DNA of 64,000 nt. Origin: a virus. Location: IMG/VR virus record IMGVR_UViG_3300024319_000005, positions 35,223-99,222 of that record. The stretch is one strand, 5' to 3'. The stretch's first letter is position 1; the number at the start of each line of letters is the position of its first letter. A program made the translations under genes and the position numbers. The notes below the pieces were generated by a model. It searched no databases. It was not told where the DNA came from and saw only the letters and a program-made list of their open reading frames with translations. Below are positions 23,733 through 63,700 of the stretch, one piece after another.

Positions 23733-24077
23733 AATCTTTTGTTTTGTTAGTTCCTAGGTATACCTATCCCCCTGGAAATTTTGTCTTTCTTGAGAGATAC
23801 TCTCGTAACTCCGTTATTAACCTGTAACTTCTACTCACTGTACGTCACCACTTACGTGGTTACACCCTTGAAGGTACGTCTATATCAACCCTTAGTATTA
23901 TTCCTTCCTAAGTTTTATATACAGGCAATTTTTGTTATTATCGGGGACATTTCAACCATTATGTTTCTCTGTTATCTCAAGAGCATAGTCTATAACCCAA
24001 CGTCTGAACTTGTGCTTTCTATAAGGATAGATGCTATTAACCAAGTTGTAATTAGTAGTTGAACTAATATAACAATG

Positions 24078-24085
24078 CAAATATA
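24078..24085 (-). promoter_or_regulatory. Candidate -7 element for the late (minus) block
   Basis: On the minus strand TATATTTG matches TAnnTTTG perfectly, but no good TTTG is present 19-21 bases upstream. If used, transcription starts near 24071 and gives a 340-base leader before the HTH gene. Confidence 0.4.
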
Positions 24086-24291
24086 AAACGAATATCTGGA
24101 TTATCCTAATTTTTTAGCACTTATTTTTAAAAAACTTTTAATCGAAGGAGAGTACTTATAAATAAGGGGTTGGGTTCATTTGAGGGTAGTGCATTAGAGC
24201 TTAAATATAAATTACATTATTTAAAAAATGGAAATATGGCGTAAAAAGTTGCCTAAAATAAAAAATTTTTTTTTTTAAAAAAATGGATTTG

Positions 24292-24342
24292 CGTATAGAT
24301 AACCTCCGTCGATGTATACAAACAATTACCCCAAACTAATTA
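24292..24342 (+). repeat. Hairpin-plus-tail motif, copy 1
   Basis: A 5' arm TTG(CG)TATA pairs with TATACAA, followed by ACAATTACCCCAAACTAATTA. The tail matches copies at 25615-25652 and 30231-30276 (consensus CAAACnAnnnCCCCAATCTAATTA), while the stem sequence differs but still pairs. It lies 75 bases before the first early gene. Confidence 0.6.
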
Positions 24343-24371
24343 TTGACAGAATTGTACCCCCAGGGTACGAT
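24343..24371 (+). promoter_or_regulatory. Sigma-70-like early promoter
   Basis: A perfect TTGACA (24343-24348), 17 bases, then TACGAT (24366-24371) forms a classical -35/-10 pair, unlike the Bacteroidetes TAnnTTTG type. It would start transcription near 24378, about 40 bases before the 107-aa gene. Confidence 0.5.
24354..24368. promoter_or_regulatory. 15-bp palindrome (operator-like) inside the early promoter
   Basis: GTACCC-CCA-GGGTAC is a perfect 6+6 inverted repeat lying between the -35 and -10 boxes, where a bound dimeric repressor would block the promoter. Confidence 0.6.
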
Positions 24372-24416
24372 TCATAATTTTTATCGAAAGCTTTCTGCTT
24401 TCAAAAATTTCGTACT

Positions 24417-24740
24417 ATGACTTTTAATGATTTGTTAGACACTCTTAACGTTAACTCTCTTTCTTTAACAATGCAGAAAGATTTAGACGGTATTGAGACT
24501 GGGTATGCTACTCAGTGGGATGCTTCTACTCGTACGAGAGTAGTTATGTCTCCTGAAGCCCTTGCAGGTGCTTCAGACCCTTCTGTTAACAACTTCGTTG
24601 TTATTCCTTCTTCATTAGTTTCTAAGGACAAGACTGTCCTTAACAAAGAGACTGGTGCTGAAGAAACTATTAAGGGACAACCTTATGTGAATAACTTCGT
24701 TATTCTCGGTGAGCCAACTATTACGTTTGGCAGACACTAG
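24417..24740 (+). CDS. First early protein, unknown, biased to C-ending codons (107 aa)
   Basis: The protein (start MTFNDLLDTLNVNSLSL) has no known domain. It is acidic-neutral, with a repeated short phrase VNNFV at two places (about residues 58-62 and 91-95). Codon use differs from neighbours: Asn is AAC six times and AAT twice, and Phe TTC and Asp GAC are frequent, whereas the replication genes prefer AAT and TTT. Together with a strong promoter this suggests very high early expression. A host-takeover role is a guess. Confidence 0.65.
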   Translation: MTFNDLLDTLNVNSLSLTMQKDLDGIETGYATQWDASTRTRVVMSPEALAGASDPSVNNFVVIPSSLVSKDKTVLNKETGAEETIKGQPYVNNFVILGEPTITFGRH

Positions 24741-24754
24741 ACTTTGATACACTT

Positions 24755-24776
24755 CCTCTGAGCTTCGGCTCAGGGG
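24755..24776 (+). other. UUCG-tetraloop hairpin after the first early gene
   Basis: CCTCTGAGC-TTCG-GCTCAGGGG gives a 9-bp stem with one G-T pair and the very stable UUCG loop. There is no T run, so it is more likely an mRNA 3'-end protector or processing product than a terminator. Confidence 0.65.
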
Positions 24777-24786
24777 ATTAAAGCTT

Positions 24787-24820
24787 GACCTGAACATGTC
24801 GCAAACTGTTCTATTTTTTT
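24787..24820 (+). ncRNA. Hairpin with conserved 12-base loop, copy A
   Basis: TTGACCT then GAAC (24792-24795), loop ATGTCGCAAACT, GTTC (24808-24811) and a T-rich run. A second copy at 25193-25231 keeps the flank and loop core ATGTCGCAAA but changes the stem to GAGT/ACTC, a two-pair compensatory change. Confidence 0.65.
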
Positions 24821-24821
24821 G

Positions 24822-24927
24822 TAGTACATTGGAGATAATACATACGACGGTATGAATCCATAGCATAACTGGGGTCGAAAATGATAAGTCAACGATGTAC
24901 TTATTGATGCGCCAATGTACTATTTTT
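24822..24927 (+). ncRNA. Candidate structured non-coding RNA closed by an 11-bp helix
   Basis: TAGTACATTGG (24822-24832) pairs perfectly with CCAATGTACTA (24912-24922). Inside are two more helices, CATAC-GACG-GTATG (24841-24854) and ATAAGT/ACTTAT with a 9-base loop (24884-24904), leaving an unpaired core around CTGGGGTCGAAAATG. Five T residues follow the closing helix, like a terminator. No sizeable ORF runs through it on the plus strand. It resembles no riboswitch or ribozyme I know. Confidence 0.65.
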
Positions 24928-24962
24928 ACCTAACGGTAAAAACTTGTCACTTTTAAAAAGTG
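24923..24962 (+). other. Two back-to-back hairpins
   Basis: TTTTTACC-TAAC-GGTAAAAA (24923-24942) and CACTTTT-A-AAAAGTG (24948-24962) follow the structured RNA. The first overlaps its T run, so it could extend or compete with termination. Confidence 0.6.
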
Positions 24963-24963
24963 T

Positions 24964-24979
24964 TATGACATCGTAGTTA
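24964..24979 (+). repeat. ATGACATCGTAGTT motif, copy 1
   Basis: TATGACATCGTAGTTA is shared, with one or two changes, with 25364-25380 and 25404-25420. Here it precedes the 56-aa gene by about 40 bases. Confidence 0.55.
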
Positions 24980-25019
24980 TAATTACGTTACGGTACATTT
25001 ACTAATCTTTAAATAATTC

Positions 25020-25190
25020 ATGATTATGATGCATTTGGATACTGTTATTAAACTAGACAGTTTACAAGACCTTTGGACTATTGACACTAATGCTCAGTTT
25101 GAGACTATGAGTGGTATAGATACTGAGGGTACTTACATAGTCTTTTATAAGATAGGTAAGCAATACTACAGTGTAAGACTAAACTCTTAA
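25020..25190 (+). CDS. Small early protein (56 aa)
   Basis: ATG at 25020 (further in-frame ATGs at 25026 and 25029) opens a 56-residue frame, MIMMHLDTVIKLDSLQDLW through YYSVRLNS, ending in TAA. It is compact, soluble and without a known motif. It is followed after two bases by the second copy of the conserved-loop hairpin, as the 107-aa gene is followed by the first, so gene plus hairpin looks like a repeated unit. Confidence 0.5.
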   Translation: MIMMHLDTVIKLDSLQDLWTIDTNAQFETMSGIDTEGTYIVFYKIGKQYYSVRLNS

Positions 25191-25192
25191 TA

Positions 25193-25231
25193 AGCTTGAC
25201 CTGAGTATGTCGCAAAAGACTCAATTTTTTT
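25193..25231 (+). ncRNA. Hairpin with conserved 12-base loop, copy B
   Basis: Flank AAGCTTGACCT as in copy A, then (T)GAGT (25203-25206), loop ATGTCGCAAAAG, ACTC(A) (25219-25222) and a T-rich run. The stem bases differ from copy A but still pair. Confidence 0.65.
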
Positions 25232-25254
25232 CTTAACCTTTAGAACATTACGTT

Positions 25255-25326
25255 ATGGAATACACAATAGAAGAACTCATTGCAGAGGTACAAGCTTTAA
25301 CTGATTACTTAACTTGGCTAGATTAG
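25255..25326 (+). CDS. Possible 23-residue peptide
   Basis: ATG at 25255 to TAG at 25324 encodes MEYTIEELIAEVQALTDYL-TWLD, an acidic amphipathic helix. Its stop codon lies inside a hairpin TGGCTA-GAT-TAGCCA. Too short to be sure it is translated. Confidence 0.3.
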   Translation: MEYTIEELIAEVQALTDYLTWLD

Positions 25327-25361
25327 CCAGGTTAAACAGTTGGTTAAATACCTTTAGAAAG

Positions 25362-25444
25362 AGTCATGATATCGTAGTTTTTGGTTAACATCTTAACCAG
25401 GAATCATGACATCGAAGTTTCCTGACTCCTGACTCCTGACTCCT
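25362..25444 (+). repeat. Motif copies 2 and 3 with a 7-base tandem repeat
   Basis: TCATGATATCGTAGTTT (25364-25380) and TCATGACATCGAAGTTT (25404-25420) repeat the motif seen at 24964. Between them is hairpin GGTTAA-CATC-TTAACC. The third copy sits in the loop of CAGGAA/TTCCTG. It runs into three TCCTGAC units (25420-25440). Confidence 0.6.
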
Positions 25445-25473
25445 TATTCTTTTACTTGCTAAATTATATAATT

Positions 25474-25653
25474 ATGTTACACCTAAAAATTGTATTCTTT
25501 TTCTATCTTATACTATCTATATGCTGCTTTACTACAATATTCGTAGGAGATTTACCTTATATAAGCCTTACCGCTACAATAGGACTAACCGTAGTCACTG
25601 TTACCGTAGGTCAATGCATCCAACGATGCAAACAACCTCCCCAATCTAATTAA
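25474..25653 (+). CDS. Small membrane protein (59 aa)
   Basis: From ATG 25474 the protein MLHLKIVFFFYLILSICCF continues into a second hydrophobic stretch (LTATIGLTVVTVTVG), so two short membrane segments are likely with a Cys-containing polar tail. A TTG at 25456 in the same frame is a less likely start. The last dozen codons are made by hairpin-motif copy 2, so the C-terminus may be under RNA/DNA-structure constraint instead of protein constraint. A membrane role such as exclusion is possible but unproven. Confidence 0.5.
   Translation: MLHLKIVFFFYLILSICCFTTIFVGDLPYISLTATIGLTVVTVTVGQCIQRCKQPPQSN
25615..25652 (+). repeat. Hairpin-plus-tail motif, copy 2
   Basis: TGCATC-CAAC-GATGCA hairpin followed by AACAACCTCCCCAATCTAATTA. 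The tail also pairs with downstream TGGGG. It overlaps the 3' end of the membrane peptide gene and lies ahead of the next small gene by about 160 bases. Confidence 0.65.
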
Positions 25654-25671
25654 TGGGGTTCGTCCTTGAAT

Positions 25672-25696
25672 AATTCTACTGGATTTACGTAGAATT
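25672..25696 (+). terminator. Intrinsic terminator
   Basis: AATTCTAC pairs with GTAGAATT around a 9-base loop, followed by TTTAATTTTT. It separates the first small-gene group from the next. Confidence 0.65.
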
Positions 25697-25811
25697 TTTA
25701 ATTTTTGTTGGTAAATAGGTTACGTTGGGATTAGTACCAACCATACCTTTTACCCTCTTTTTGACACTTACTTATAATCACATTCCTAATGAATAATTAA
25801 ATTCTTTTAAA

Positions 25812-25970
25812 ATGAAAGACTTTCTATCAATCCTATATTTAGTTATAGCTCTATCAATACTTCTTATTGGTTCTTTAACTATTATACTTATACTTTCAGA
25901 TTATCCAGAGATGATATTTGCTAGTATAGCTGTATATTTTACTTTCAACTATTTAGTAGACAAGGTCTAA
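25812..25970 (+). CDS. Small membrane protein (52 aa)
   Basis: ATG at 25812 to TAA at 25968 encodes a protein with one or two membrane helices (ILYLVIALSILLIGSLTIIL, then IFASIAVYFTFNYLV). No domain known. It is preceded by alternative hairpins (TTGGTA/TACCAA and GTTGG/CCAAC, about 25706-25741). Small membrane proteins in early regions often modify the host envelope, but no evidence here fixes the role. Confidence 0.5.
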   Translation: MKDFLSILYLVIALSILLIGSLTIILILSDYPEMIFASIAVYFTFNYLVDKV

Positions 25971-26020
25971 GTTCTAACCTAGTAATAGAACGTAATTATA
26001 ATATCAAAATATATTTTCAA

Positions 26021-26521
26021 ATGAAATACTTTATAACAATACTTACATTATTATCTATTACTAATTTCACTTATTCTCAAGACTATAGTTATGTAGATAA
26101 ACTATCTAACACTAACTATACTGAGTGGAATGGTCAAGTAGGACATACTAGTATAGAAAAACCTGTACGAGCTGTAATAGAATACCAAGGCAATTACAAT
26201 TTTATATTTAACTTAGTATTAAGTTTAGAAACTAAAGACAAAGGGTTTTTTACTTTACCTTTTAAAGCTACACATAGCACTGCTTTTGATGGCGAAAGTG
26301 GAACAGTTATCCTTAAATTAAAGGATTTTGGTAGTCCAGCTTTGTTTATAAAAATACAAATACCAAACAAGCATGGCTTTCAATGTATAGTACATTACTT
26401 ATACATTAAATCTTTTATAAATGATGTACCTCTTAGAATAGTAATAAAAGATCAAAAGATTATAGACATAATAGATACTCTTACTTCTTCAATAAATAAA
26501 CAAGAGTATTATGGTATATAA
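26021..26521 (+). CDS. Secreted or periplasmic early protein (166 aa)
   Basis: A clear signal peptide (MKYFITILTLLSITNFTYSQ, cleavage after about residue 19) is followed by a beta-rich domain without known family. The mature part has one Cys. An exported phage protein made early may act at the periplasm or outer membrane, for example in superinfection exclusion, but this is inference. It overlaps the following 52-aa gene by 11 bases. Confidence 0.65.
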   Translation: MKYFITILTLLSITNFTYSQDYSYVDKLSNTNYTEWNGQVGHTSIEKPVRAVIEYQGNYNFIFNLVLSLETKDKGFFTLPFKATHSTAFDGESGTVILKLKDFGSPALFIKIQIPNKHGFQCIVHYLYIKSFINDVPLRIVIKDQKIIDIIDTLTSSINKQEYYGI

Positions 26522-26669
26522 AGGATGGCAGATAGAAGAAGATGATTGGTTCAAAGACAATTATGTTGCTTGGGATTTAAATGATTGTGATAATCACAAT
26601 ATACTGCACAGTATTTCTCTAGAATCTATTAAAATAGAAATAGATGAGTACATTGACGATTATAATTAA
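26511..26669 (+). CDS. Small acidic protein (52 aa)
   Basis: ATG at 26511 lies inside the end of the secreted-protein gene, and TAA is at 26667. The sequence MVYKGWQIEEDDWFKDNYVA is acidic and aromatic, with no recognised domain. The overlap start suggests translational coupling. Confidence 0.5.
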   Translation: MVYKGWQIEEDDWFKDNYVAWDLNDCDNHNILHSISLESIKIEIDEYIDDYN

Positions 26670-26788
26670 TGCCTTGAAATAACAGGCGAGTTTGGCAACT
26701 ACTCTAAATAAGTTGCATTTACCTCAGTACAACATAGCTTAAGTAATCGTTAAGTAATATTGTTGTACTGGGTATTTTAAACAACAGT
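26670..26788 (+). ncRNA. Structured RNA leader upstream of the tRNA-like element
   Basis: No ORF. Helices: GCAACT/AGTTGC (about 26696-26715), and a long hairpin in which ACC-CAGTACAACA (26721-26734) pairs with TGTTGTACTG-GGT (26762-26774), with an inner CTTAA-GTAATCG-TTAAG helix. The 12-mer TTGCATTTACCT here recurs at 30220-30231. Confidence 0.6.
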
Positions 26789-26926
26789 ATAGCGTCTCTT
26801 TTATGAGTGAGGTTAGATAGATAGGTAAGGTAACTATGTTACGTGAGCATGGAGTAGGATTGCAATTAAGCAATAAACTGAAATACGCTTTACTTACTAA
26901 TGAGAGTTCGAGTCTCTTGCGCTATA
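26789..26926 (+). ncRNA. tRNA-like RNA with intact T arm and acceptor stem but oversized body
   Basis: The 3' part is textbook tRNA: GAGAG-TTCGAGT-CTCTT forms a T arm, followed by GCGCTAT that pairs with ATAGCGT at 26790-26796. The distance between the acceptor arms is about 136 bases instead of 75-90. Inside, GTAAG pairs with CTTAC just before the T arm and two further hairpins (GTAAC/GTTAC, ATTGC/GCAAT) can form, but I cannot place a normal D arm or anticodon loop. A T-rich run follows. It may be an insert-bearing tRNA, a tRNA remnant, or a tRNA-mimicking stable RNA. Confidence 0.5.
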
Positions 26927-26967
26927 TTTTTTTATTTCCTAACATCATTATTAAATTTATATAAAAA

Positions 26968-27342
26968 ATGAAACTTATTGACTATATCGTAATACTTTAC
27001 ATTATAATTTTTCTAACTTATGTACCATACAAATCTTACTGTATGTATTTAGATAATTTACCAACTAAGAGTTCTGTAGAATATTCATATACAGAACAAG
27101 CAAAAGTGTACATAGGAAAAGATAAATTAGAGCTTGAAGTTACATATTGTAACGACAATACTGAAATAAACTCTATGAAATCTGAAATAATAGGTGACTA
27201 CGTATTTGTAGGGTCATATGAAGATATGGAATCTATTATTAATTTATGTTTAGAGAACCAACCTATCGATAATACTGTTACATATCTTAGAGATTACTAT
27301 AAAAATATAGTAATAACATCATTAAATAACATTAAAATATAA
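26968..27342 (+). CDS. Membrane-anchored early protein (124 aa)
   Basis: An N-terminal hydrophobic segment (YIVILYIIIFLTYVPYKSYCMY, residues 6-27) can be a membrane anchor. The remainder is a soluble acidic domain with no recognised family. It is the first of a run of closely spaced genes to 29873. Confidence 0.55.
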   Translation: MKLIDYIVILYIIIFLTYVPYKSYCMYLDNLPTKSSVEYSYTEQAKVYIGKDKLELEVTYCNDNTEINSMKSEIIGDYVFVGSYEDMESIINLCLENQPIDNTVTYLRDYYKNIVITSLNNIKI

Positions 27343-27347
27343 CAAAA

Positions 27348-27896
27348 ATGAGTAAACTATTTAATTTTAAAGCAACAGTATGGGAAACAGTAGTTGTACC
27401 TGAACATTTAGAAGATAAAATTGCAACTTTAATTTCTAATGGTATTATACAATCTAGAGAAGAGCTAGAAAACTATCTAAAATCAGTAGGTGAAACTGCT
27501 GAGGTTTACTTTGAATCTTCATTTAATGATAGTCCGTTACCACCTTCATTTACACAAATGAGTGTAGCGCAAAATAGTGGTGACCCTACAATAGAAGTTC
27601 TTCACGATAATAAAATCATCTGGGATAATACTTTACCACTTACTACAGATAGTTATAAAATATGTATACTTACAAAAACAATTAAAGGATTGTCAGAAGA
27701 AAGTATATATGGTACTGAAGAGCAAGCACTAGAGTCAGCATACAAAGATGTAATGAATCCAGTGTATTTTAGAGCTCCTAATAGCAATGATACTCTATCA
27801 AATTACATAGATGAATACTACGAGTATGTATCTACAACGTTAGACAATCTAACTGATTACAATATATCTGTTAGATACTTAAACATTAACCTTTAA
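27348..27896 (+). CDS. Unknown protein (182 aa)
   Basis: Starts MSKLFNFKATVWETVVVPEHL, a pattern of beta strand then helix with a short basic N-terminus. No known domain, signal peptide or membrane segment. Five bases separate it from the preceding gene. Confidence 0.6.
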   Translation: MSKLFNFKATVWETVVVPEHLEDKIATLISNGIIQSREELENYLKSVGETAEVYFESSFNDSPLPPSFTQMSVAQNSGDPTIEVLHDNKIIWDNTLPLTTDSYKICILTKTIKGLSEESIYGTEEQALESAYKDVMNPVYFRAPNSNDTLSNYIDEYYEYVSTTLDNLTDYNISVRYLNINL

Positions 27897-27909
27897 AATT
27901 TATATACAA

Positions 27910-28170
27910 ATGGATAGAAATAATTTTCATACTAAGACTGACTTAACTTATGATTGGATAATAAAGTCAAAGATAGCTACTGAGCAAGAAATTAGATTAG
28001 TTACTTCTATAATAGGTTATAATTTAGATTCTTTAAATGATATTATATTTGCTAGAACAGCTTATAAAGATATGACACAACATCCAGCAGGAGAAATACA
28101 GTCTGTAACAGAAGATCAAATATCTTCTCTATCTGAACCTATTAATAACATAGAATTTATAGCATGGTAA
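27910..28170 (+). CDS. Small unknown protein (86 aa)
   Basis: Soluble, helical in the middle (EQEIRLVTSIIGYNLDSLND). No named family. It overlaps the kinase-like gene by 7 bases, so the two are translationally coupled. Confidence 0.55.
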   Translation: MDRNNFHTKTDLTYDWIIKSKIATEQEIRLVTSIIGYNLDSLNDIIFARTAYKDMTQHPAGEIQSVTEDQISSLSEPINNIEFIAW

Positions 28171-28769
28171 ATATAAAACACAATCTTATCGGAATCTCTG
28201 GCAAAATCAGCTCAGGAAAAGATTTAGCAGGTAAGATATTAAACGATCTTTCAGGAAATATTTTTGAAAACAAAAAATTTGCAGATAAACTTAAAGATAT
28301 AGTTTGCTTACTTATTGGATGTACTAGAGAGCAATTAGAAGATAGAGAGTTTAAAGAAAAAGAACTCGGTGAAGAGTGGAGGCAATATTTTAATGACGAT
28401 TATGATTTAGTTTATGAAAAAGAAAGCACATTTTCTTCATTATTAACACCTCGTAAACTTCTACAACTTTTAGGTACTGAATGTGGTAGACAAATTATCC
28501 ATCCTAACATTTGGGTAAATGCTTTGTTTGCTGATTATACTCCTTTAACATCTTGGCTAGTAACAGATGTTAGATTCCCTAACGAATGCCAAGCTATTAA
28601 AAATAGAGGTGGTATTGTTATAAAAATAAATAGAGACTTTGATGTAGTAGACAACCATTCATCGGAAACAGCTCTAGACAATTACAATGGATTTGATTTT
28701 GTTGTAGATAACAATGGAAGTATAGATGACCTTACTAATAACTTAATAAAAATAATTAACAATGATTAA
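28164..28769 (+). CDS. Deoxynucleoside monophosphate kinase-like P-loop protein (201 aa)
   Basis: A P-loop-like motif is present at residues 13-20 (GKISSGKD) after a beta strand (NLIGIS). Further down, RKLLQLLGTECGRQI and WLVTDVRFPNECQAI match the T4 gp1/dephospho-CoA-kinase-like dNMP kinase group, in which VTDVRFPNE is a hallmark. It would phosphorylate dNMPs for DNA synthesis, in step with the ribonucleotide reductase genes at 48.5-52.1 kb. Overlaps both neighbours by 7-8 bases. Confidence 0.8.
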   Translation: MVNIKHNLIGISGKISSGKDLAGKILNDLSGNIFENKKFADKLKDIVCLLIGCTREQLEDREFKEKELGEEWRQYFNDDYDLVYEKESTFSSLLTPRKLLQLLGTECGRQIIHPNIWVNALFADYTPLTSWLVTDVRFPNECQAIKNRGGIVIKINRDFDVVDNHSSETALDNYNGFDFVVDNNGSIDDLTNNLIKIINND

Positions 28770-29031
28770 TTTCAAAAAGTATGATGTAGAAAATCCACAA
28801 GTGTGGTCACAGTTCAAAAGATTTGCATTTGAAGCTAAAGAAAAAGGCTTTAATAATTACTCTGCAAAAGGTATATTTGAATTGATTAGATGGCATACAG
28901 GAGTAAAAGGTACAGGTAATTATAAGTTATGTAATAACTATACACCTGATTATGCTAGAAAGATGATGAGAGAACACCCTGAGTTTGAGGGTTTCTTTAG
29001 GGTTAAACAACTTAAAGCTAAAAGATCGTGA
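28762..29031 (+). CDS. Conserved small phage protein (89 aa)
   Basis: The order VWSQFKRFAFEAKEKGFNNYSAK, then FELIRWHTGV, then NNYTPDYARKMMREHPEF, is a pattern I recall from many phage proteins without assigned function. It is basic and all-helical and could bind nucleic acid. It overlaps the kinase gene by 8 bases and the radical-SAM gene by 4. Confidence 0.65.
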   Translation: MINFKKYDVENPQVWSQFKRFAFEAKEKGFNNYSAKGIFELIRWHTGVKGTGNYKLCNNYTPDYARKMMREHPEFEGFFRVKQLKAKRS

Positions 29032-29873
29032 AGATAGTACCTTGGGTTAACAAAACGATAACACCTAAACCAAACGGTAGGAGCAGTGATTTTATTTCTG
29101 CTTCCTACATTTGGGGATGTAACGGTGGTTGTAAAAACTATTGTTATGTCTATCGTAATCAGAAGCAAACAGTAAATGTTGCTACCAATTTAGATCAAAT
29201 TGAAGCGGCTGTTACCAAACTAGCAAATAAATTGCCTTTGCACAAGCCACCTAATCAAATATCACAGAATGGTTTGTATTATCTTGATATTGGGTGTAAT
29301 TCTGATGTAGCACTATACAGTAAAAGAATTGAATTAGAAAGAATACTTAAATTTTATGACAATAATTTAAAACTTAACACTACTTTTGCTACTAAATACT
29401 CTAAATTACTGACACTAGATGTAAATCATTTTAATAAAAAACCTAGAGTTCGTGTATCATTGATGCCTGAACGACTAGCTACTGTATTAGAAAGTGGTTG
29501 TACATCAGTACCTGAACGTATTACTGACATAAAAAGATTACAAAGTCTTGGTTGGGAAGTACAGATTAATTTTAGTCCAGTTGTATTATATAATAACTGG
29601 CAAAGAGACTACAATGAGTTGTTTAAGATTATAGCTAATCAAGATATAGATGTACCTTGTGAAGTTATTATGTTAACAGGATCTGTAGCACCAAATATTC
29701 CTGAGTTTGAGCATAATTACTTGTTAAGTAATGAATTTCAAGAAGAAAAAATAACAAAATATGGTTCTAAAGCTAAAAGATATAACTATCATATGAAAAA
29801 AGGAGCTATAGAAAACTTTAAAACTATTTATTCAAAGTATTGGGATGTAAAAAACATCAGATACATTTTTTAA
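29028..29873 (+). CDS. Radical-SAM protein related to spore photoproduct lyase (281 aa)
   Basis: The cluster motif WGCNGGCKNYCYVYR at residues 29-43 places cysteines at 31, 35 and 39. The rest follows the spore photoproduct lyase group: RVRVSLMPERLA, a later Arg-Ile helix (ERITDIKRLQSLGW), VQINFSPVVLYNNW and QRDYNEL. Such enzymes use a 4Fe-4S cluster and S-adenosylmethionine to make a 5'-deoxyadenosyl radical, and the lyase repairs thymine spore photoproduct. The Cys spacing is C-x3-C-x3-C instead of the usual C-x3-C-x2-C. DNA repair or base modification is plausible, but the substrate is unknown. Confidence 0.8.
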   Translation: MKIVPWVNKTITPKPNGRSSDFISASYIWGCNGGCKNYCYVYRNQKQTVNVATNLDQIEAAVTKLANKLPLHKPPNQISQNGLYYLDIGCNSDVALYSKRIELERILKFYDNNLKLNTTFATKYSKLLTLDVNHFNKKPRVRVSLMPERLATVLESGCTSVPERITDIKRLQSLGWEVQINFSPVVLYNNWQRDYNELFKIIANQDIDVPCEVIMLTGSVAPNIPEFEHNYLLSNEFQEEKITKYGSKAKRYNYHMKKGAIENFKTIYSKYWDVKNIRYIF

Positions 29874-29918
29874 TTTAAAAAATATTAATTAATCTTAAAC
29901 TTTAAAAATTACCACATT

Positions 29919-30125
29919 ATGAAAATATCTATATTGAAAGAATTAAATCAATATGTAAACGATTTGATAAAAGATAAAGTACTAACAAAAGAAAATTTTG
30001 ATGATTGGCATTATATCGCATTTAATCATTTAGATCCATTTGGAGCGGTTCAAATATGCAATAAGTACGAAATATACGGCAAAGAAGTTATTTCTTCGAT
30101 ACAAGACAATTTTCACAAATATTAA
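29919..30125 (+). CDS. Small unknown protein (68 aa)
   Basis: MKISILKELNQYVNDLI begins a helical, charged protein ending DNFHKY. No domain known. Followed by about 200 non-coding bases that hold hairpin-motif copy 3. Confidence 0.5.
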   Translation: MKISILKELNQYVNDLIKDKVLTKENFDDWHYIAFNHLDPFGAVQICNKYEIYGKEVISSIQDNFHKY

Positions 30126-30213
30126 AATATTAAAATGTCTTTACTTTAGCTATAGGCTAAACTGGGAGTCCATCATAAAGGTACAAAGAATTTTTGATAT
30201 AACCATTTGGAAC

Positions 30214-30276
30214 GTGGCTTTGCATTTACCTTGCATCATTGTACAGTTGATGCAAACCACACCCCCAATCTAATTA
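30214..30276 (+). repeat. Hairpin-plus-tail motif, copy 3, with an alternative fold
   Basis: TTGCATCA (30231-30238) pairs with TGATGCAA (30248-30255), then ACCACACCCCCAATCTAATTA. Alternatively GTGG-TTTGCAT (30214-30225) can pair with ATGCAAA-CCAC, excluding the first helix. It is about 55 bases before the next gene. A weak CTCT/AGAG hairpin with a T run follows near 30284-30310. Confidence 0.65.
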
Positions 30277-30330: not shown

Positions 30331-30588
30331 ATGAATAATCGTACAAAAGAAGAGTTGTGGTCTTGTAAATCTAAAGACTCATTTAGAAAAATGGTAAGTA
30401 GATTAGAAAACAAATTTAGAAGTAGAAAAGACCTACTAGCTAGATTACATAATATTACAGATAATATCTATATGGTTAAGCAGCTTGGATATAATGTATG
30501 TGGTGTCTACTCTGAAAAAGAGTTAATCCAAAGATTACAAGGAGTAACAACTTCTTTTGATCTAAAAAGCCCTCTAACTGAGGCATAA
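30331..30588 (+). CDS. Small basic protein (85 aa)
   Basis: Helical, rich in Arg and Lys in the first half (RKMVSRLENKFRSRKDLLARL), no named domain. It lies just downstream of hairpin motif copy 3 and starts the block that leads to the polymerase. Confidence 0.55.
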   Translation: MNNRTKEELWSCKSKDSFRKMVSRLENKFRSRKDLLARLHNITDNIYMVKQLGYNVCGVYSEKELIQRLQGVTTSFDLKSPLTEA

Positions 30589-30625: not shown

Positions 30626-31042
30626 ATGTATTTAGAAATCGTAAACAAGGGAGAAATTAAAACTTCCGAAAAAATTAACAAAAATTACAGAACTGTCTCA
30701 GTAAGAGAAAATCAAATGTCTCAATTTACTAAGCCTGACGGAACACAAGGTATTGCTAAAGGAGTAGCAAAAACAGGTACAATAGTAGTTTGGGAAAATA
30801 GATGGGATGATGGATTCAATGACTTAGGTTATGATGAAACTGTTGGTTCTTATCTAATGGGTAGTGTAGTAAGACGTAAAGTATTACCTTATGCACTTCC
30901 TGATGGACAAGTAGTAAACTCATATAAGACTGTTGTTTTAGGTGATACTACTGACCCTTCTTTTGAGCTTAATATTGAACGTGCATTTAAACGTGCAAAT
31001 CATGAAATTATGGAAGAAACTGCTATGCCAGTAATGTCATAA
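30626..31042 (+). CDS. Unknown early protein followed by a strong terminator (138 aa)
   Basis: Beta-rich N-terminal two thirds (YLEIVNKGEIKTSEK, later TGTIVVWENRWDDGF) and a helical end (FKRANHEIMEETAMPVMS). It could be an OB-fold-like nucleic-acid protein, but I see no firm family. It ends at an intrinsic terminator, so it is probably expressed in excess over the polymerase gene that follows. Confidence 0.55.
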   Translation: MYLEIVNKGEIKTSEKINKNYRTVSVRENQMSQFTKPDGTQGIAKGVAKTGTIVVWENRWDDGFNDLGYDETVGSYLMGSVVRRKVLPYALPDGQVVNSYKTVVLGDTTDPSFELNIERAFKRANHEIMEETAMPVMS

Positions 31043-31121: not shown

Positions 31122-33344
31122 ATGAAATTTATAGGTAAATACATAGTAGAGGGTATAAAAAATACTACAATATCTGAATGTTTAGCTTATTGTAAATCTA
31201 AAACTATACTAGGTATAGATATTGAGACAACACCAAAATATAAACAAGGTACGTTTGATGAAACAATATACCGTGGTGGTTTAGATCCTTATCTTACTGA
31301 GATAGTTATGTTGCAGATAGGTGACTTAGATATGCAATACATCATAGATGTCAGAGATTTTAGTAAAGAAGAGTTACAACCATTAATAGATTTTATACAT
31401 TGGAATGAAGATGTTACATTTATAGGTCAGAATTTAAAGTTTGAAGGTAAGCACCTAAGACACAATTATGACATTAGGCTTAAACGAGTTTATGATACAA
31501 TGTTAGCAGAAATTAGTTTGTATAACGGTCTTAACATTGGTTTATCAATGGAAGCTATGTCTAAAAAATATCTAAATTATAAATCTTCTAACTCTTTTGA
31601 TTTGTTTAATCAAATAAAAGTTAAAAGTATATCTAGTATTAATGAGCATAGTGACTATAGTATTACTCCTTTTGAGTTAGAAGAGTTAAATATTATAGAC
31701 AAATCTATAAGATTAGGTTTTTTAAAAATAGAAGACAATCCATTTACATATGAACAATGCAAATATGGTGCTGAAGATATTGTAATACCTTTTCAAATTA
31801 GAGAAGAACAATTAAAAGGTCATGATTTGTTAGGTTTTCATTTTTGTAATGAATCTAACATAAACTTTGAGTCTACATATACGCAAGTAGTAGCTGATAT
31901 GGAGTTAAATGGTATGCCTTTTAATGTAGAAAAATGGAAAGAGTTACATGCGAAGAATAAAAAAATTTATTATAATAGATTAGACATACTAAATAAATAT
32001 GTTGTTTCTAATTATCCTAAGTTTGGACAAACATCATTGTTTAATCCATTAGGTGATTGTATAATAGATTGGAGTAGTCCTTCTCAAGTAATAGCATTCT
32101 TTAGAAGTTTAGGTATCTGCGATAAAGAGAAATCTAAACAAACTAAACGTATGGAGTGGTCTGTAGGAGCTAAAGCAGTTCTTGCTACTTCACCGTTTAA
32201 AAAGAATTATCTTACTGATACTGACATTGAAATTGAGTGTTTAAATAGCTTAAAAATGGCTTATTTGTTAGTCAGAAAGTCTCAAATGAATATTACTACA
32301 TATGGTTTAGATTTTCTAAAGTATGTACATCCTATTACTGGTAGATTGCATCCTAATTATAGGCAACATCTTATTAGTTCTCGTACAGCAACTACTAAAC
32401 CAAATCTTTTAGCAATACCTGGGTCTCATAGAGATGCATTTCATGCTGGAGATAAATGTTTAGTAGTTAATGACTATAGTTCTCAAGAATCTGTAGTTAT
32501 TGCAGCATTGTCGCAGGATGAGTCTTTATTAGATTTCTTTAACAATGGTCACGAGTTATTTGGATCTGATTTTCACAGTTATACTGCTCAATTAGTAGGT
32601 GAAGTTAGTGATCCTGACTTTAAAATTTATCCTGATAGTCATGATAAGTATGAAAAGTGGATGAAAGGTGTAAGACAAAATACAAAAAGTATTAATTTTG
32701 GTCTTGCCTATGGTATTACAGCTATTAGTTTATCTAAACAGCTCGGTATATCAAAAGAAGAAGCAGAAGAATTAGTAAAAGATTACTTTTCTGCTTTTCC
32801 TAAGCTAGAAAGCTTTATTAAAAATTCTATGGACAACGCTTTAAATGATGGTTACGTTATATTTGAACCTAATTTAAAAGCTATATATATACAAGATGGT
32901 TATAAAGACATAAAAGAGAAAGAAGAATACTGTAGGTCATTTTTCTTTAACGATATGTACAAAGCTTTATTACCTTCACAGAGAGAACTGTATAAAACAA
33001 AACTGTACAAAGATAAACCACATATTAAAGAATATTATACTGATATTGGTTTGTTTAAATCTAAATTAGGTAACAGAGGTTGTAATTTAAAAATACAAGG
33101 TACCTCTGCCAAACAATCAAAGTTAGCTCAGATCAGATGTAGAATTCATTCTATAGAACATCCAGAGCTTGACTGGGATATCTTATTGTTATTACACGAT
33201 GAAATAGCTAGTGAGACTACTTGGGATAATGCAGATACAGTTAAAGACTTACAAAATACTTATATGGTGCAAGCAGCTAATTTCTTTTGTCCTGATCTAT
33301 CATTTAGAACATCAGGAGAAACATCTTACGTTTGGGAGCATTAG
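31122..33344 (+). CDS. polA-like: Family A DNA polymerase with 3'-5' exonuclease (740 aa)
   Basis: The exonuclease domain shows DIET at residues 33-36, a middle motif around IGQNLKFEGKHLRHN, and YGAEDIV as exonuclease III. The polymerase domain has motif A at DYSSQE (Asp451), motif B RQNTKSINFGLAYG (Arg518, Lys522, Tyr530) and motif C HDE (692-694). All catalytic residues are present, so it is an active replicative polymerase. It lies after a terminator and starts the replication block. No 5'-nuclease domain is fused. Confidence 0.96.
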   Translation: MKFIGKYIVEGIKNTTISECLAYCKSKTILGIDIETTPKYKQGTFDETIYRGGLDPYLTEIVMLQIGDLDMQYIIDVRDFSKEELQPLIDFIHWNEDVTFIGQNLKFEGKHLRHNYDIRLKRVYDTMLAEISLYNGLNIGLSMEAMSKKYLNYKSSNSFDLFNQIKVKSISSINEHSDYSITPFELEELNIIDKSIRLGFLKIEDNPFTYEQCKYGAEDIVIPFQIREEQLKGHDLLGFHFCNESNINFESTYTQVVADMELNGMPFNVEKWKELHAKNKKIYYNRLDILNKYVVSNYPKFGQTSLFNPLGDCIIDWSSPSQVIAFFRSLGICDKEKSKQTKRMEWSVGAKAVLATSPFKKNYLTDTDIEIECLNSLKMAYLLVRKSQMNITTYGLDFLKYVHPITGRLHPNYRQHLISSRTATTKPNLLAIPGSHRDAFHAGDKCLVVNDYSSQESVVIAALSQDESLLDFFNNGHELFGSDFHSYTAQLVGEVSDPDFKIYPDSHDKYEKWMKGVRQNTKSINFGLAYGITAISLSKQLGISKEEAEELVKDYFSAFPKLESFIKNSMDNALNDGYVIFEPNLKAIYIQDGYKDIKEKEEYCRSFFFNDMYKALLPSQRELYKTKLYKDKPHIKEYYTDIGLFKSKLGNRGCNLKIQGTSAKQSKLAQIRCRIHSIEHPELDWDILLLLHDEIASETTWDNADTVKDLQNTYMVQAANFFCPDLSFRTSGETSYVWEH

Positions 33345-57708: not shown

Positions 57709-60700
57709 TTATGATTTAGAGCAATCTTCTGCGTTAGACGTATCTTCATTAAAGGCTTCTCCAGGATTTACGTGCTCTACATCAAAGTAAGAATCATAGT
57801 CTTGAAAACCTGACACCTGTGAATCTTCTAAAGAAGCTATAGATTCTTTAGTCTCTTGCACACTTGACTGTCCTTTACTACTTGCCTTAGTTCCTATAAA
57901 AGTATGTAGGTTTGCGTCTTTACTTTGATACATAGGAAATTCAATTCCTCTACCTCCACTAAAAGTTTTTGTATCTGCTACTACATATACTCCATTACCA
58001 TTGTGAATCAATGGGTAAGTTACACGTTTACTAGTTTGTTTATTATTTATAATATCATCAAAAAATACTTGTTTACTAGCATAAGCATAGTCTGGTAAAA
58101 ACCCCTCACTATCTTGCATTGCTCTTTTTTCTGCATCATCCATTATAACTCGTTGTGTACCAGTTTCAGTTTTTACTATATTACCTCGTAACATATAAGT
58201 AAATTCTGGAGCATACTTTCTTACTATATCTAACGCTGAATCACTACCACTTAGTTCCCCAAAACTCGTTTTATATTTAGATCTTAGCTTTAAAGGCATA
58301 ATACTCCAGAACGATCCTGGTAATATTTCAAACCCTTGCTTTAGCATTTGATAATCTGCAAGTAATTCTGCAAATCTTCTAGTTTCAGAATTCTCATACA
58401 TCTCAGACCACATATCCATAAGCATAGTAGTAGTAGTTGGATCTGCATTTCCTAAACTAAATGAATACATTTTATCTGTACCTCTTTTTACTAATCTCTT
58501 TTTAATACGTTTAGTAAAATCATTGTGCTTACCTCCTTCTACTATTTTTTTATACTCTGCTTCTAGATCAGGAATAGTATTCTTAAAGTAATTAGGGTCT
58601 TGCATTTCCATAGATTTAACAACTAGCCTTGTATTTAACCTTGAATATAACGCTCTTAAAGATTTTTCATTTAAAGGCTTATTTGTCACCTTTTTCATTT
58701 GTTCTATAGCGTTCCTAAAATACTTGTGATCATAAGGTAAAATACCATCTAAATGTTTTTTACCTTCAACTAACCCTTGCTCTATTTTATTAATAACCCA
58801 AGGTGCTATTTTCTGTACTGTTACATGTTTAAACTTATTCTCTTGCATTTTAGCATTGAACTTATCGTACTTTTCTTTATTTAAATAAGTCTGAGCATAA
58901 GATGGAGAAACTCCAGTATCTGCTAATTTAGTAATTGCTAATACATCAGATATTTCAGAAGCCATTGCCATTAAAGCAAAAGTAGATTCTAGATTTCTTT
59001 TACCATCTTTAAAATCTTTTATTACATCCATATCAAAAGTTGGAGTATAACTGTCAGGTAAGTTCTTTGCAATGAAACCGTAATCTTGAGCTAATATTTC
59101 CATAACTTCTTGTCTGCTTTTACCTTGAGCTTTTCTAGCAAACTCTTTAACTGCAGGTTGATTAACTATAAACAAAGCTTCATTCATACTTCTACCTAAA
59201 CTTAGTAATACATTAAGTACAGGTAAAGTTACTTGGTTTATATTTAACTGAGCAGCTAAAGGATCTTTTACATTATCTACTGCTTGTGCTAGAGGTTCTG
59301 CTCTATTTCTAGATACTTTTTTACCTTCAGTATCTTCTGTTGCAGATAAACTCTTAATCCTTTCAGACATCTCACCATTTTCTATAAACCTAACTCCAGT
59401 TTTTAACCCCATCTGTACTAATGGAGCTCCAGTGTTAAAGTTAGCAGATATACCAATATTGTTTGCTCCTGTAAGAGTATTCTCTAAAGCATTAGCATTA
59501 GCAGATACTCCTAAGAAAGCTTCTTTATCGTACTTTGGATTTGTTTCTGCTAATTTAGCTTTATGTTCATCTCTAAAACTTTGTAGCTGTTGGTATCCTC
59601 CAGGATTTAATCCTTCAAGTGGAGTAGCGTGCTTAAATTTAATCATAAGATCTAATATAGTGTTATCTATACTTTCAATCTTGTTTCCATTTGCGTCTAC
59701 TTCATATTGGAATCCAAATAGTTTATCAATATCATAATCAAAACCAGAAATATCTGGAGATTCTGCAGGCATTATAATACCATTAGCCATACTTTCTGGT
59801 AGTATACCTATAGGTCTAATTACAAACATAGAGTATTTATCCTCAGTAGGTATTCTATACATAAGCATTTCTTTAAATCCTTCTGGAATTAAATCTAATG
59901 GGATTCTCTCACCAAAGTTATCTTTTAAAAGAGCATCCATAGATGGGTGCATACCTTCAGGTATCCAAGCTTCAAATATTACTTTTGTAATATTACCATC
60001 TTTATCTTTTTCTATAATTACTTCTGGCATATTTTTCTTAGACAAACCATATGAAGATACGTTATACATTGAGTTACCATTTACTTTCTGTATTGTAACG
60101 TTGTTACGTACTATAGAAGATAGTACAGGCTCTATAATACTTAACAACTGAGGATCATCTATACTTAATTCATTTTCTTTAATTGCTTCTTGTATCTCTA
60201 AAGGAAATTTATCTAAGTGAGTTAAAATAGTTTTTCTTAATGATTCTTTATCTTTAAATATTTCTTTTACTTTGTTACTTGCAGCATTAGTCTTTGCTTG
60301 TAAAGCTTCTTGGTATTGCTTCTTTTCTTCTGCCATACCTTGAACATCATTAGCTATTAGCTTAGTTAATTGTATAGCTAACTTCTGCACTTCATTTGGA
60401 CTAATGTGCGGAGTAGTATCAAGTTGTGCTTTCCAATTAGTCATATCCATAGTTCCTCTACCATCCATAAGACCAATCTTAAACACAGAGTGAGGAGCAT
60501 ATAAATCTATATACTTTGGATTAGTTTCTGATTGGATAGATGCAACTCTACCTTCAAAATCAAAATCAAACTTTCCTTTACCTGTAATAGTCCATCCAAA
60601 CTTTTTTAATATATCCTTCATCATTTGATTAGTAGCTGCAAACGTAGGGTCTAATACTATTTCAGAATCTTTCTTCTGTATAGGATTTAATAATCCAGAT

Positions 60701-63700
60701 GCATTTTCATGTAGCCCAAAGTAATGTGGCTTATAGATTACGTGCTTATGCTTTTTTATTAGAGTCATAAACTCTTCTTTTGTTTGTGGCATGTCTAACA
60801 CTCCCATACCTGCTAAACGTACTATAGAAGCAAAAGGATCTATCATAGATTGACCATCTTGTACTGTAGCATAGTATTTATATATAGGGTTACCACTTTT
60901 GTCTGTACCTACTTGTTTTTTCTTTCCTATACCTAAACCTAAAGCTTGTAAGTCTTTACTTACTTCTACGTCTAAGCCAGGTAATGTAGTAACACCAGGC
61001 GTATCATTATAAGACTCTACATGTATTCTTGTAATAGGCTTACCCCCTACTTGCATTGCAGATTTACTAAGAAATTCTCCTGGAGAATATACTTGCTTAA
61101 ATCTTTTTACAAAGTCAGTAGCTAACGTACTATCAATACTTTTAAAGTTAGCAGGATCTCCTGTGTAAAGTAAAGTGTACTTAGCTTGTGTTTCTAAAGT
61201 TTGAGCTACAAATAATTTTAATTCTAAATCACTATAAGTATCTTTAATATCTGCTTCTTTTAGTTCTTTCTTTAGATTTGCAGTTAAGTTAGCTATTTCG
61301 TTCTTTACACTACTTGCAGCTTTACCAGTACCATCATCTTTAATTAAGTATCTTCCAGATTTGTTTTTATTATAATTATCACTACCACTTACAGTAGTAT
61401 CTTTCATTCTAATACTCTCTTGCTCAAATATATTAATTAAATTTTCTTCTACTACTTCTAAAGACTCAGCAATATTATTTCCTTTAGGTACTTCAATAGC
61501 AATCATAGTATGACCATCTCCCATTACAGGAGTTGGAATTGCTCTAGCATTTTTCTTAGATGTAAAGTTAAAGAATAAAGCTAATGATGTTTGTAAGTAT
61601 TCTTTCTTTGTCATTTGATCATAATCAGAAGACAAACCCTCAGTCTTAATACTATCTATTTCATATAGAGTTGCTTCTGCTAAAGCTTTTGCACCTCCTA
61701 ATTGATCTAATACTTTACACATAGGGTCATTAGAATATCTGTCAGCATATCCATTTTCATTTTTAATTAACCTTGACTGCTCCATATAAATAGAAGAGGT
61801 ATATCTATGTGCATATTTTAATTTACCATTTACTCTATATGCTGATTGATAGTAATTAGGTAGTAATATTACAAGCCTATCTAAGAATGCGTTTACATTC
61901 TCAAAATTAAATTTAGTATCTTTCCCTCCTTTCCCTGTTTTTCTACCAAGTATAAGACCATTTAACTTATCAACTTGTTCTGTATTAACAATTATACCTG
62001 CTTTAGCAAGTGTAGCTTTTAATTCTTCACCTTCTAATAACTTATATGGATCTGAACCATAACCAACACTTTCAACTAAATCTATTAACTGCTGCCTCAT
62101 AATACTATGCATAGTGTTGTTATTAGCATTAAGAGCTTTTAACTCTTTCTTATCATTAACCATAACTAAAATAGGATTTACTTTCCTTTTCTGTGCTAGT
62201 CTAAAGAATGTAGCTTGTAGCTTAGGCTCACCTACTAATTCACTGTATACTTGCTCTAATACCTCTACTTTATTACTATAGTATTTTGATTCTGGATGTG
62301 GATTTAATCTTTCCATCATATCAGCTTCACTAATACTACCATGGGTAACTTGTAAAAACTTATTATAGATATTTAAAAAATCTTCTTTTACATCAAACCC
62401 AAAAGAATCTATCTCACCAGAGTTAGAATCTACGTTTTGCAGTATGTGCATTGCATCTTCTGATAATGATGTAGTTGGATTTTCTTCTGCTTTCATCCAA
62501 GACTGAGTTTGTCTACCACTAATATCTCTACTAGCAGAACCTTCAGTAACATTGTCAGCTTCTTGAGCATCCGCAGTAGCTTCATTTATTTCTTTAATAA
62601 TAGTACTTAACCTTACTCCTCTTTCTTTTAGCCTTGCTTGCATAGCTATTAAGAAATCATTTTTATGGTTATTATAAGCATCAGCTATTACTTGATAATC
62701 TGCATCGTATGTTACTAGATCTTGTAATACTTTCTCCATATTAGTGTCAGAAAGAGCTTTAACTAAGGTTGTGTCATTTCTCTTTGCCCAACCTCTAATA
62801 CCATCTACTAAAGTTATTACAGAATCTTTTAGTCTTTTTGCTTTAGACGTTCCTGCAGGTGCTCCTGCCATTAAAGCATCTTTTAAAGTACTAATACTAT
62901 ATAGTGCAGTTCCTTCAGTCATTGCTGGGTGTGCAGCTACAGTACCTAAACCTAAAGATAGTTTATAGTTAAGAGTATCTAAATCATTAATGTTATCAGT
63001 AAATAAACCTCTAGTCATGTGATATACTTTCTTAAAGAAATTATATATCTGAGCACCTAATCTTTTTAGTATATTACCATTAGATAAACCTGCTAGTCTA
63101 TTTATTTCAAAAGTCTCGTATTGCTCTGCTAAAAATTCTAAGATTCTAGTAGTAGGATCTAAAGCTGCATCTTGAGATTGTTTACTTATATTTTTATTTG
63201 TCGTACTCTTAGGAGTAGCAGTCGTTAAACTTGTATTAAACGCTTCTTGAGTAATCTTATTATTAGGGTTAGCTTTGTTATAAGCTTTAAGTCCTGCTCT
63301 TAATACTTGCTCTCTTTGTTTAGGAGTTAATACTACTTCAGTAAGTACATGCATAGCCTCGTGATAAACAGTACTACTGTTAGCACCTTCTCTAATACGT
63401 ACTAAAGCTTTAGTAAATACACCCCATGCATTAGTACCCCCTATATTATTTAAATCTTTTACTAAAGATATAGGGAAATTAGGAAACCTAGATTTAAACC
63501 AATCTAAAGTTTCTTTAGTTACTACATTACCTTTACCTTTATCTAATGTACTTAAATCCCTTCGACCTTTTCTTTTTTGTGTTGTTGGTTGACCAAGACT
63601 TAAAAAGTTTTTAGCCTCAACACCTAACTGACTTAATACAGAATCTATTTCCTTCTGAGAAATAGCAAGGCCACTCATTTTACCAGGTACTCCTTCAAAA

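Follow-up and report, generated by a model that had tools for sequence, protein, structure and literature searches.

Three copies of a C-rich element before the early genes of a crAss-like phage: a candidate linear promoter for its virion RNA polymerase

crAss-like phages rank among the most abundant human gut viruses, and the class of their giant RNA polymerase is linked to the eukaryotic polymerases of RNA interference. The present analysis concerns a 64-kb window, bases 35223-99222 of a 99,222-base IMG/VR phage record (IMGVR_UViG_3300024319_000005), whose TerL, portal and major head protein match crAss-type families and whose nearest isolate by TerL is Cellulophaga phage phi14:2 (29% identity). 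Unless another genome is named, all coordinates below are those of the window. Its subject is a 24-mer element that stands three times in front of early genes, and whose repeated core we propose, with somewhat more confidence than doubt, to be an early promoter element for the crAss virion RNA polymerase.

The closest described systems differ in the way in which a particle-carried polymerase finds its start sites. The T7-like virion RNA polymerase (vRNAP) of phage N4 needs a stem of 5-7 base pairs with a 3-nucleotide loop at -11 (PMC4496689). In Thermus phage P23-45, the vRNAP (gp96) has an AT-rich motif and the non-virion polymerase (nvRNAP) a GC-rich one (PMC10770324). The early genes of phi14:2 undergo rifampicin-resistant transcription by a virion enzyme of the gp66 type (PMC10136315), and the early arm of crAss001, at the same genome end, is on within 10 min (PMC8375218). 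The consensus of the Bacteroidetes hosts for the -7 box is TAnnTTTG (PMC9723704). As for the polymerase of the phi14:2 type, no promoter is stated for it in the literature that we found.

The window encodes such an enzyme on the minus strand at 57709-63999, in a frame that is still open at the end of the record, which bears out the claim of an earlier sequence-only reading of this DNA. A search of the PDB sequences with this protein gave no match; the direct comparison with phi14:2 gp66 succeeded, with a blastp E value of 2e-10 over the catalytic region and the DYDID motif of the window aligned to DFDID of gp66. A vRNAP homologue is also present in the distant relative G003 (E 1.7e-31), and gp32 of Flavobacterium phage FpV4 has the DYDID motif. 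By its sequence, the polymerase is therefore to be placed in the two-barrel (DxDxD) class of phi14:2 and the crAss phages, not in the T7-like class of N4.

The three copies of the element, whose consensus is CAAACnAnnnCCCCAAwCTAATTA, lie on the plus strand at 24319-24342 (CAAACAATTACCCCAAACTAATTA), 25629-25652 (CAAACAACCTCCCCAATCTAATTA) and 30253-30276 (CAAACCACACCCCCAATCTAATTA). They are where the sequence-only reading had seen a conserved motif tied to early genes, copy 1 differing by one base from the tail that it quoted. When the whole 99,222-base genome was searched with the 14-mer tail (2 mismatches) and with the pattern CAAAC...CTAATTA (3 mismatches), three copies were found on the plus strand and none on the minus strand, and dinucleotide shuffles of the window gave no match at 1-2 mismatches. 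The motif is thus repeated only 5' of early genes and on the early strand. Its significance rests on the whole 24-mer: with 3 mismatches the tail 14-mer alone is at chance level and nearly all its 99 IMG/VR matches are unrelated, so that it was rejected as evidence. Copy 1 stands at the start of the rightward early arm, 75 nucleotides 5' of the first early gene (24417-24740, 107 amino acids, without family match). Copy 3 precedes by 55 nucleotides the gene at 30331-30588 (85 amino acids), which is followed by 30626-31042 and by a family-A DNA polymerase (31122-33344). Copy 2, 5' of the gene at 25812-25970 (52 amino acids), overlaps by eye the 3' end of a 59-residue open reading frame (ORF) at 25475-25653. 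This ORF is small and membrane-like, and its final codons, again by eye, are the element itself. A translation signal is disfavoured by the presence of one copy per gene and by the variable distance to the ATG (about 40-170 nucleotides), and the 'G-free C-rich stretch' was dropped as a defining property, being common elsewhere in these genomes.

The surroundings of copy 1 are richer than those of the two others. An A/T tract lies upstream (24260-24283), and a similar one precedes the first early gene of the close relative L106, of crAss001, cr85 and cr128, and of FpV4. The core that copy 1 shares with relatives, CTAATTATTGAC (24336-24347, plus strand), is defined by the alignment of 11 elements described below. 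It is followed by a second C-run with a hairpin, GAATTGTACCCccaGGGTACGATTC (24349-24373, plus strand), which accompanies the first-gene copy only, in the window phage as in its relatives.

The sequence-only reading had also described a short hairpin before each copy, and perfect stems are indeed found: GTATA/TATAC at 24293-24319 (5 base pairs, loop of 17), TGCATC caac GATGCA at 25615-25630 (6 base pairs, loop of 4) and TTGCATCA ttgtacagt TGATGCAA at 30231-30255 (8 base pairs, loop of 9), all on the plus strand. In each of the three the 3' arm adjoins AAAC. Since the background for a perfect stem of at least 5 base pairs at a given base is only 2-4% per site, the three stems are not due to chance, with the caveat that copies 2 and 3 have a GATGC stem in common and may be duplicates. 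It was on these hairpins that the earlier proposal of N4-type promoters was built, which, taken literally, would have the polymerase recognise an extruded hairpin on single-stranded DNA. The arrangement resembles N4 P1-P3 in its few copies on one strand before early genes, in the packaged RNA polymerase and in the inverted repeat beside a conserved tail. It departs from them in the class of the polymerase, in loops of 4, 9 and 17 nucleotides instead of a fixed 3-nucleotide loop, and in its conserved part, which here is a linear C-rich sequence plus CTAATT. Furthermore, outside the window a stem of at least 5 base pairs ending at the corresponding base (2-nucleotide tolerance) is present at only 3 of 12 elements; none was found at the elements of L106, crAss001, cr128 and cr114_1, nor at four of the five FpV4 copies. 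The 3' arm of copy 1, TATAC, is itself part of a conserved string, GATGTATACAAAC, which other crAss-like phages have as GATATACACCAA, GATGTACACCAAC or GTATATACAAAC. The hairpin is real in the window phage, yet the conserved property is the sequence and not the hairpin, which is mostly peculiar to this one phage. The N4-type proposal did not survive this comparison, and we now regard it as highly improbable.

A resemblance may also be sought in the host. The core TAATnnTTG is similar to the -7 box of the Bacteroidetes sigma-A promoter (TTG...TAnnTTTG), the two being alike in an AT-rich box with TA and TTG and in the distance to the gene, and variant boxes with altered spacing exist in F. psychrophilum (PMC9723704), so that the elements might be promoters of the host RNA polymerase equipped with an alternative sigma factor or a phage factor. 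The spacing, however, is TA-N4-TTG, one base longer than in TAnnTTTG, the upstream part is C-rich, and no -33 TTG element stands at a fixed distance. The canonical box TAnnTTTG is missing within 60 nucleotides upstream of every window copy, and the early transcription of phi14:2 resists rifampicin (PMC10136315). We consider a host promoter unlikely.

The sequence-only reading had counted absence of the motif before the early genes of relatives as evidence against itself. This absence was not observed in L106 (IMGVR_UViG_3300025652_000047), whose DNA polymerase and TerL are 77% and 82% identical to those of the window phage: one copy, CAAACAATAGCCCATTGCTAATTA, lies 58 nucleotides 5' of its first early gene. 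L106 keeps the string ATGTATA(A)CAAACAAT..CCC....CTAATTA in front of a first early protein that is only 29% identical, and it does not keep the stem. Related elements are also present in FpV4, cr106_1, G003, crAss001, cr10_1, cr114_1 and phi14:2.

Several of the relatives are metagenome contigs. When over 60 distant TerL loci were scanned with a position weight matrix, only L106 rose above the reversed-sequence control, so that the distant link was established by synteny of portal and TerL, through which the IMG/VR contigs L170, G003 and G004 were found; a search for genome contigs gave just two distant relatives. Apart from unrelated coding matches, degenerate pattern scans of IMG/VR returned this species and L106 alone, and the gut-core pattern gave two Steigviridae matches there, the rest being mostly chance. 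In L170, CTCCCCCGGAACTTTTTCTAATTTTTGCTACCCCCGG lies 5' of an early gene. In G003 (108,763 bases, with a 127-base terminal repeat), a 2.2-kb part of the early arm contains five units, which stand before nearly every one of the successive small genes. Four of the five are made up of TTAAAAACTATTTCC, a variable spacer of 12-36 bases and TTTCTAATyyTTGAC or a near variant of it, and the first consists of the second half only. Anchoring on CTAAT the 11 elements of the window, L106, L170, G003 and G004, which were chosen partly by eye, gives C-N5-CTAATTnnTG. In local alignments, the first-gene leader of the window matches those of L106, phi14:2 and G004 better than shuffles do (p 0.003 each), and the leader of L170 likewise matches that of G003.

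Four genomes, FpV4, cr106_1, cr10_1 and cr114_1, were examined after the idea had been formed and served as tests. In FpV4, CAAAACCCtCACTTATT occurs five times, always on the early strand (0.07 in shuffles); the first of these copies is at the late/early junction and reads ACAAAACCCCCACTCATTATTAGTAATCCAATATCCCCC. In cr106_1, five copies of TCATTACTCCCCCTT precede tandem early genes, the first reading TAATTACTCCCCCCTTGTTCTTGAGTTTTGGGTTGTACCCCC; depending on the mismatch limit, 4-5 are counted on the early strand against 0-1 on the other. The leaders of the Suoliviridae cr10_1 and cr114_1 read GTATATACAAACCCCCTCCCCCATCA...CACCCCC and GATATACACCAAAACAAATCCCCCA...GTCCCCC. The pattern 'C-run, 12-36 nucleotides, C-run', expected by chance 0.35-0.7 times anywhere, has its sole match at the first-gene leader in FpV4 (whole genome) and in cr10_1 and cr114_1 (stretches).

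In the gut Steigviridae, the first-gene leader, which is unannotated in the records examined, is nearly invariant from crAss001 to cr128_1 and consists of an A/T tract, TATGAG, ACACCAACnnCACCtCCCCCATyACTTAGCC and GGGG-N5-CCCC. It shares with the window leader GTATATACAcCAAC, the C-runs and the A/T tract before the first early gene, and differs from it in being a single copy with the core CATCACTTAGCC instead of CTAATT; for phi14:2 and crAss001 together, the element is given as C-rich/CTTAG or CCCCCACTC. Two observations concern the genes behind these leaders. In Kehishuvirus 'tikkala' (L224, 7261-8261), the first early gene is present twice, and the leader of the second copy is reduced to its downstream half, starting with CATCACTTAGCC. 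In the crAss001 record (NC_049977.1, 102510-87), the ends of the record interrupt the first early gene, and a frame shift occurs there; the gene is annotated as 48 amino acids, against 86 in relatives.

The layout GTATAcAmAC / C-run / C-run is found, in part incompletely, in the first-gene leaders of crAss001, cr128, cr10_1, cr114_1, cr106_1, FpV4 and phi14:2. Because it recurs in isolates and named genomes, the first-gene leader is, as far as such comparisons tell, a feature common to the order, with the core repeated in some lineages and the second C-run at the first gene only.

Such a leader could also act as RNA, and a conserved 5' leader RNA element is the main rival to a promoter. Transcription would then start upstream, the A/T tract being one possible site, while the C-rich stretch and hairpins would act in the early mRNA through stability, attenuation or the binding of a phage protein. 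At first genes, stable C/G-run hairpins do occur 3' of the core, 7 of 7 gut Steigviridae retain a CCCCAT/GTGGGG stem, hairpins stand at all three window copies and the distances to the start codons are compatible. On the other side, RNAalifold applied to the gut phages revealed no pair changed on both sides, window copies 1-3 and L106 have different folds, no Rfam 15 family scores above gathering in the window, and the extra copies of FpV4 and cr106_1 keep the linear core and not the hairpins. We rate a leader RNA as less likely than a promoter, though well ahead of the other alternatives.

The position of copy 1 raises a further alternative, namely that the signal at the divergent junction is an origin of replication or serves some other kind of DNA processing. 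Leftward genes, structural and late, occupy the window left of about 23.7 kb; rightward genes run from 24417 to about 54 kb, first small ones, then DNA polymerase, helicase and ribonucleotide reductase; and the leftward RNA polymerase genes begin at about 54 kb. Copy 1 coincides with the cumulative GC-skew minimum (about 24-26 kb), and the second C-run is found at the junction copy only. Copies 2 and 3, like the extra copies of FpV4, G003 and cr106_1, stand before separate genes away from the junction, and an origin seems very unlikely as an explanation of the element.

The junction and the early arm contain other features. Between the two arms, a non-coding block (about 24012-24085) lies inside a 434-nucleotide stretch that is 83% identical to L106; it has, at 24085 on the minus strand, a host-type TATATTTG box from which the late arm could be driven. 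The string AAGCTTGACCTGA..ATGTCGCAAA..TC.ATTTTTTT occurs twice (24781-24820 and 25192-25231), each time directly 3' of an early gene, and is terminator-like: the stem letters of the two copies differ yet pair (GAACA/TGTTC, GAGT/ACTC) around an identical loop, followed by a T7 run. ATGAcATCGtAGTT occurs three times in the leaders of small early genes (24965-24978, 25366-25379 and 25406-25419). A non-coding tRNA-like element closed by GTACATTGG/CCAATGTAC (about 24824-24940; 4726-4817 in L106) is 76% identical to L106 despite diverged early proteins, and a second tRNA-like stretch, at about 26815-26935, ends in GAGAGTTCGAGTCTCTTGCGCTAT and is not called as a tRNA; ARAGORN and Rfam gave no match in the early region, the first of these elements included. 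In the close relative (L112, 10001-13393), TerL has a large in-frame insertion of about 338 amino acids relative to that of the window, possibly an intein.

We return to the reading of the elements as linear early promoters, which is the most likely one because the core is confined to early leaders and to the early strand and is repeated gene by gene, because it is better conserved than the adjacent protein, because the host -7 box is missing upstream, and because similar multi-copy elements are present in other phages with this polymerase class. Its nearest parallel is P23-45, where a single-chain phage RNA polymerase of the two-barrel class likewise has a short linear promoter motif of its own in front of early genes; a further likeness is that relatives without the polymerase are also without the motif (PMC10770324). 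The motif sequence is another one, and it was defined there by transcription start site mapping and chromatin immunoprecipitation sequencing, here by comparison only. Several points weigh against the proposal. The literature that we found gives no transcript 5' ends for these phages. Copies 2 and 3 are absent from L106, and only one copy is present in phages of the crAss001 type. The core varies from clade to clade (CTAATT, CTTAG, CTTATT, CATTACT). As a bare 17-mer with 4 mismatches the G003 unit is not above chance and is distinctive only through its clustering and the shared upstream box. Finally, some matches were picked by eye once the pattern was suspected, and these genomes commonly contain stretches that are simply C-rich and G-poor.

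In the model that we propose, the three elements would be recognised by the two-barrel virion RNA polymerase that the phage itself encodes, an enzyme of the phi14:2 gp66 type, and we infer that transcription most likely starts at them and is most likely the work of this enzyme. The specificity would reside not in an N4-type hairpin but in a short sequence, a C-rich stretch then CTAATTnnTG in the clade of the window phage and CTTAG/CTTATT/CTCATT or TTGA forms elsewhere. The polymerase would enter with the DNA; copy 1, at the opening of the early arm, would serve it as a start, and so would copies 2 and 3 for later early operons, those of the replication genes included. The second C-run after the core at the first gene, once per genome, may have a separate role in the leader RNA, in entry or in replication. 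Much more tentatively, and with the balance tilted towards doubt, the first-gene leader of the Crassvirales as a whole (A/T tract, GTATAcACCAAC, C-run, CTAAT/CTTAG core, second C-run) might serve the ejected giant RNA polymerase throughout the order as the site where it loads and starts; only the core of this leader would have been copied to further early genes in some lineages.

The candidate sites in the isolates phi14:2, crAss001 and FpV4 make the choice of start site directly testable. In many crAss-like phages the first early genes are marked by related signals, which are therefore good candidate start sites of a particle-carried polymerase. If the proposal for the order holds true, this leader would define a new class of phage promoters, the first to be assigned to this family of polymerases.

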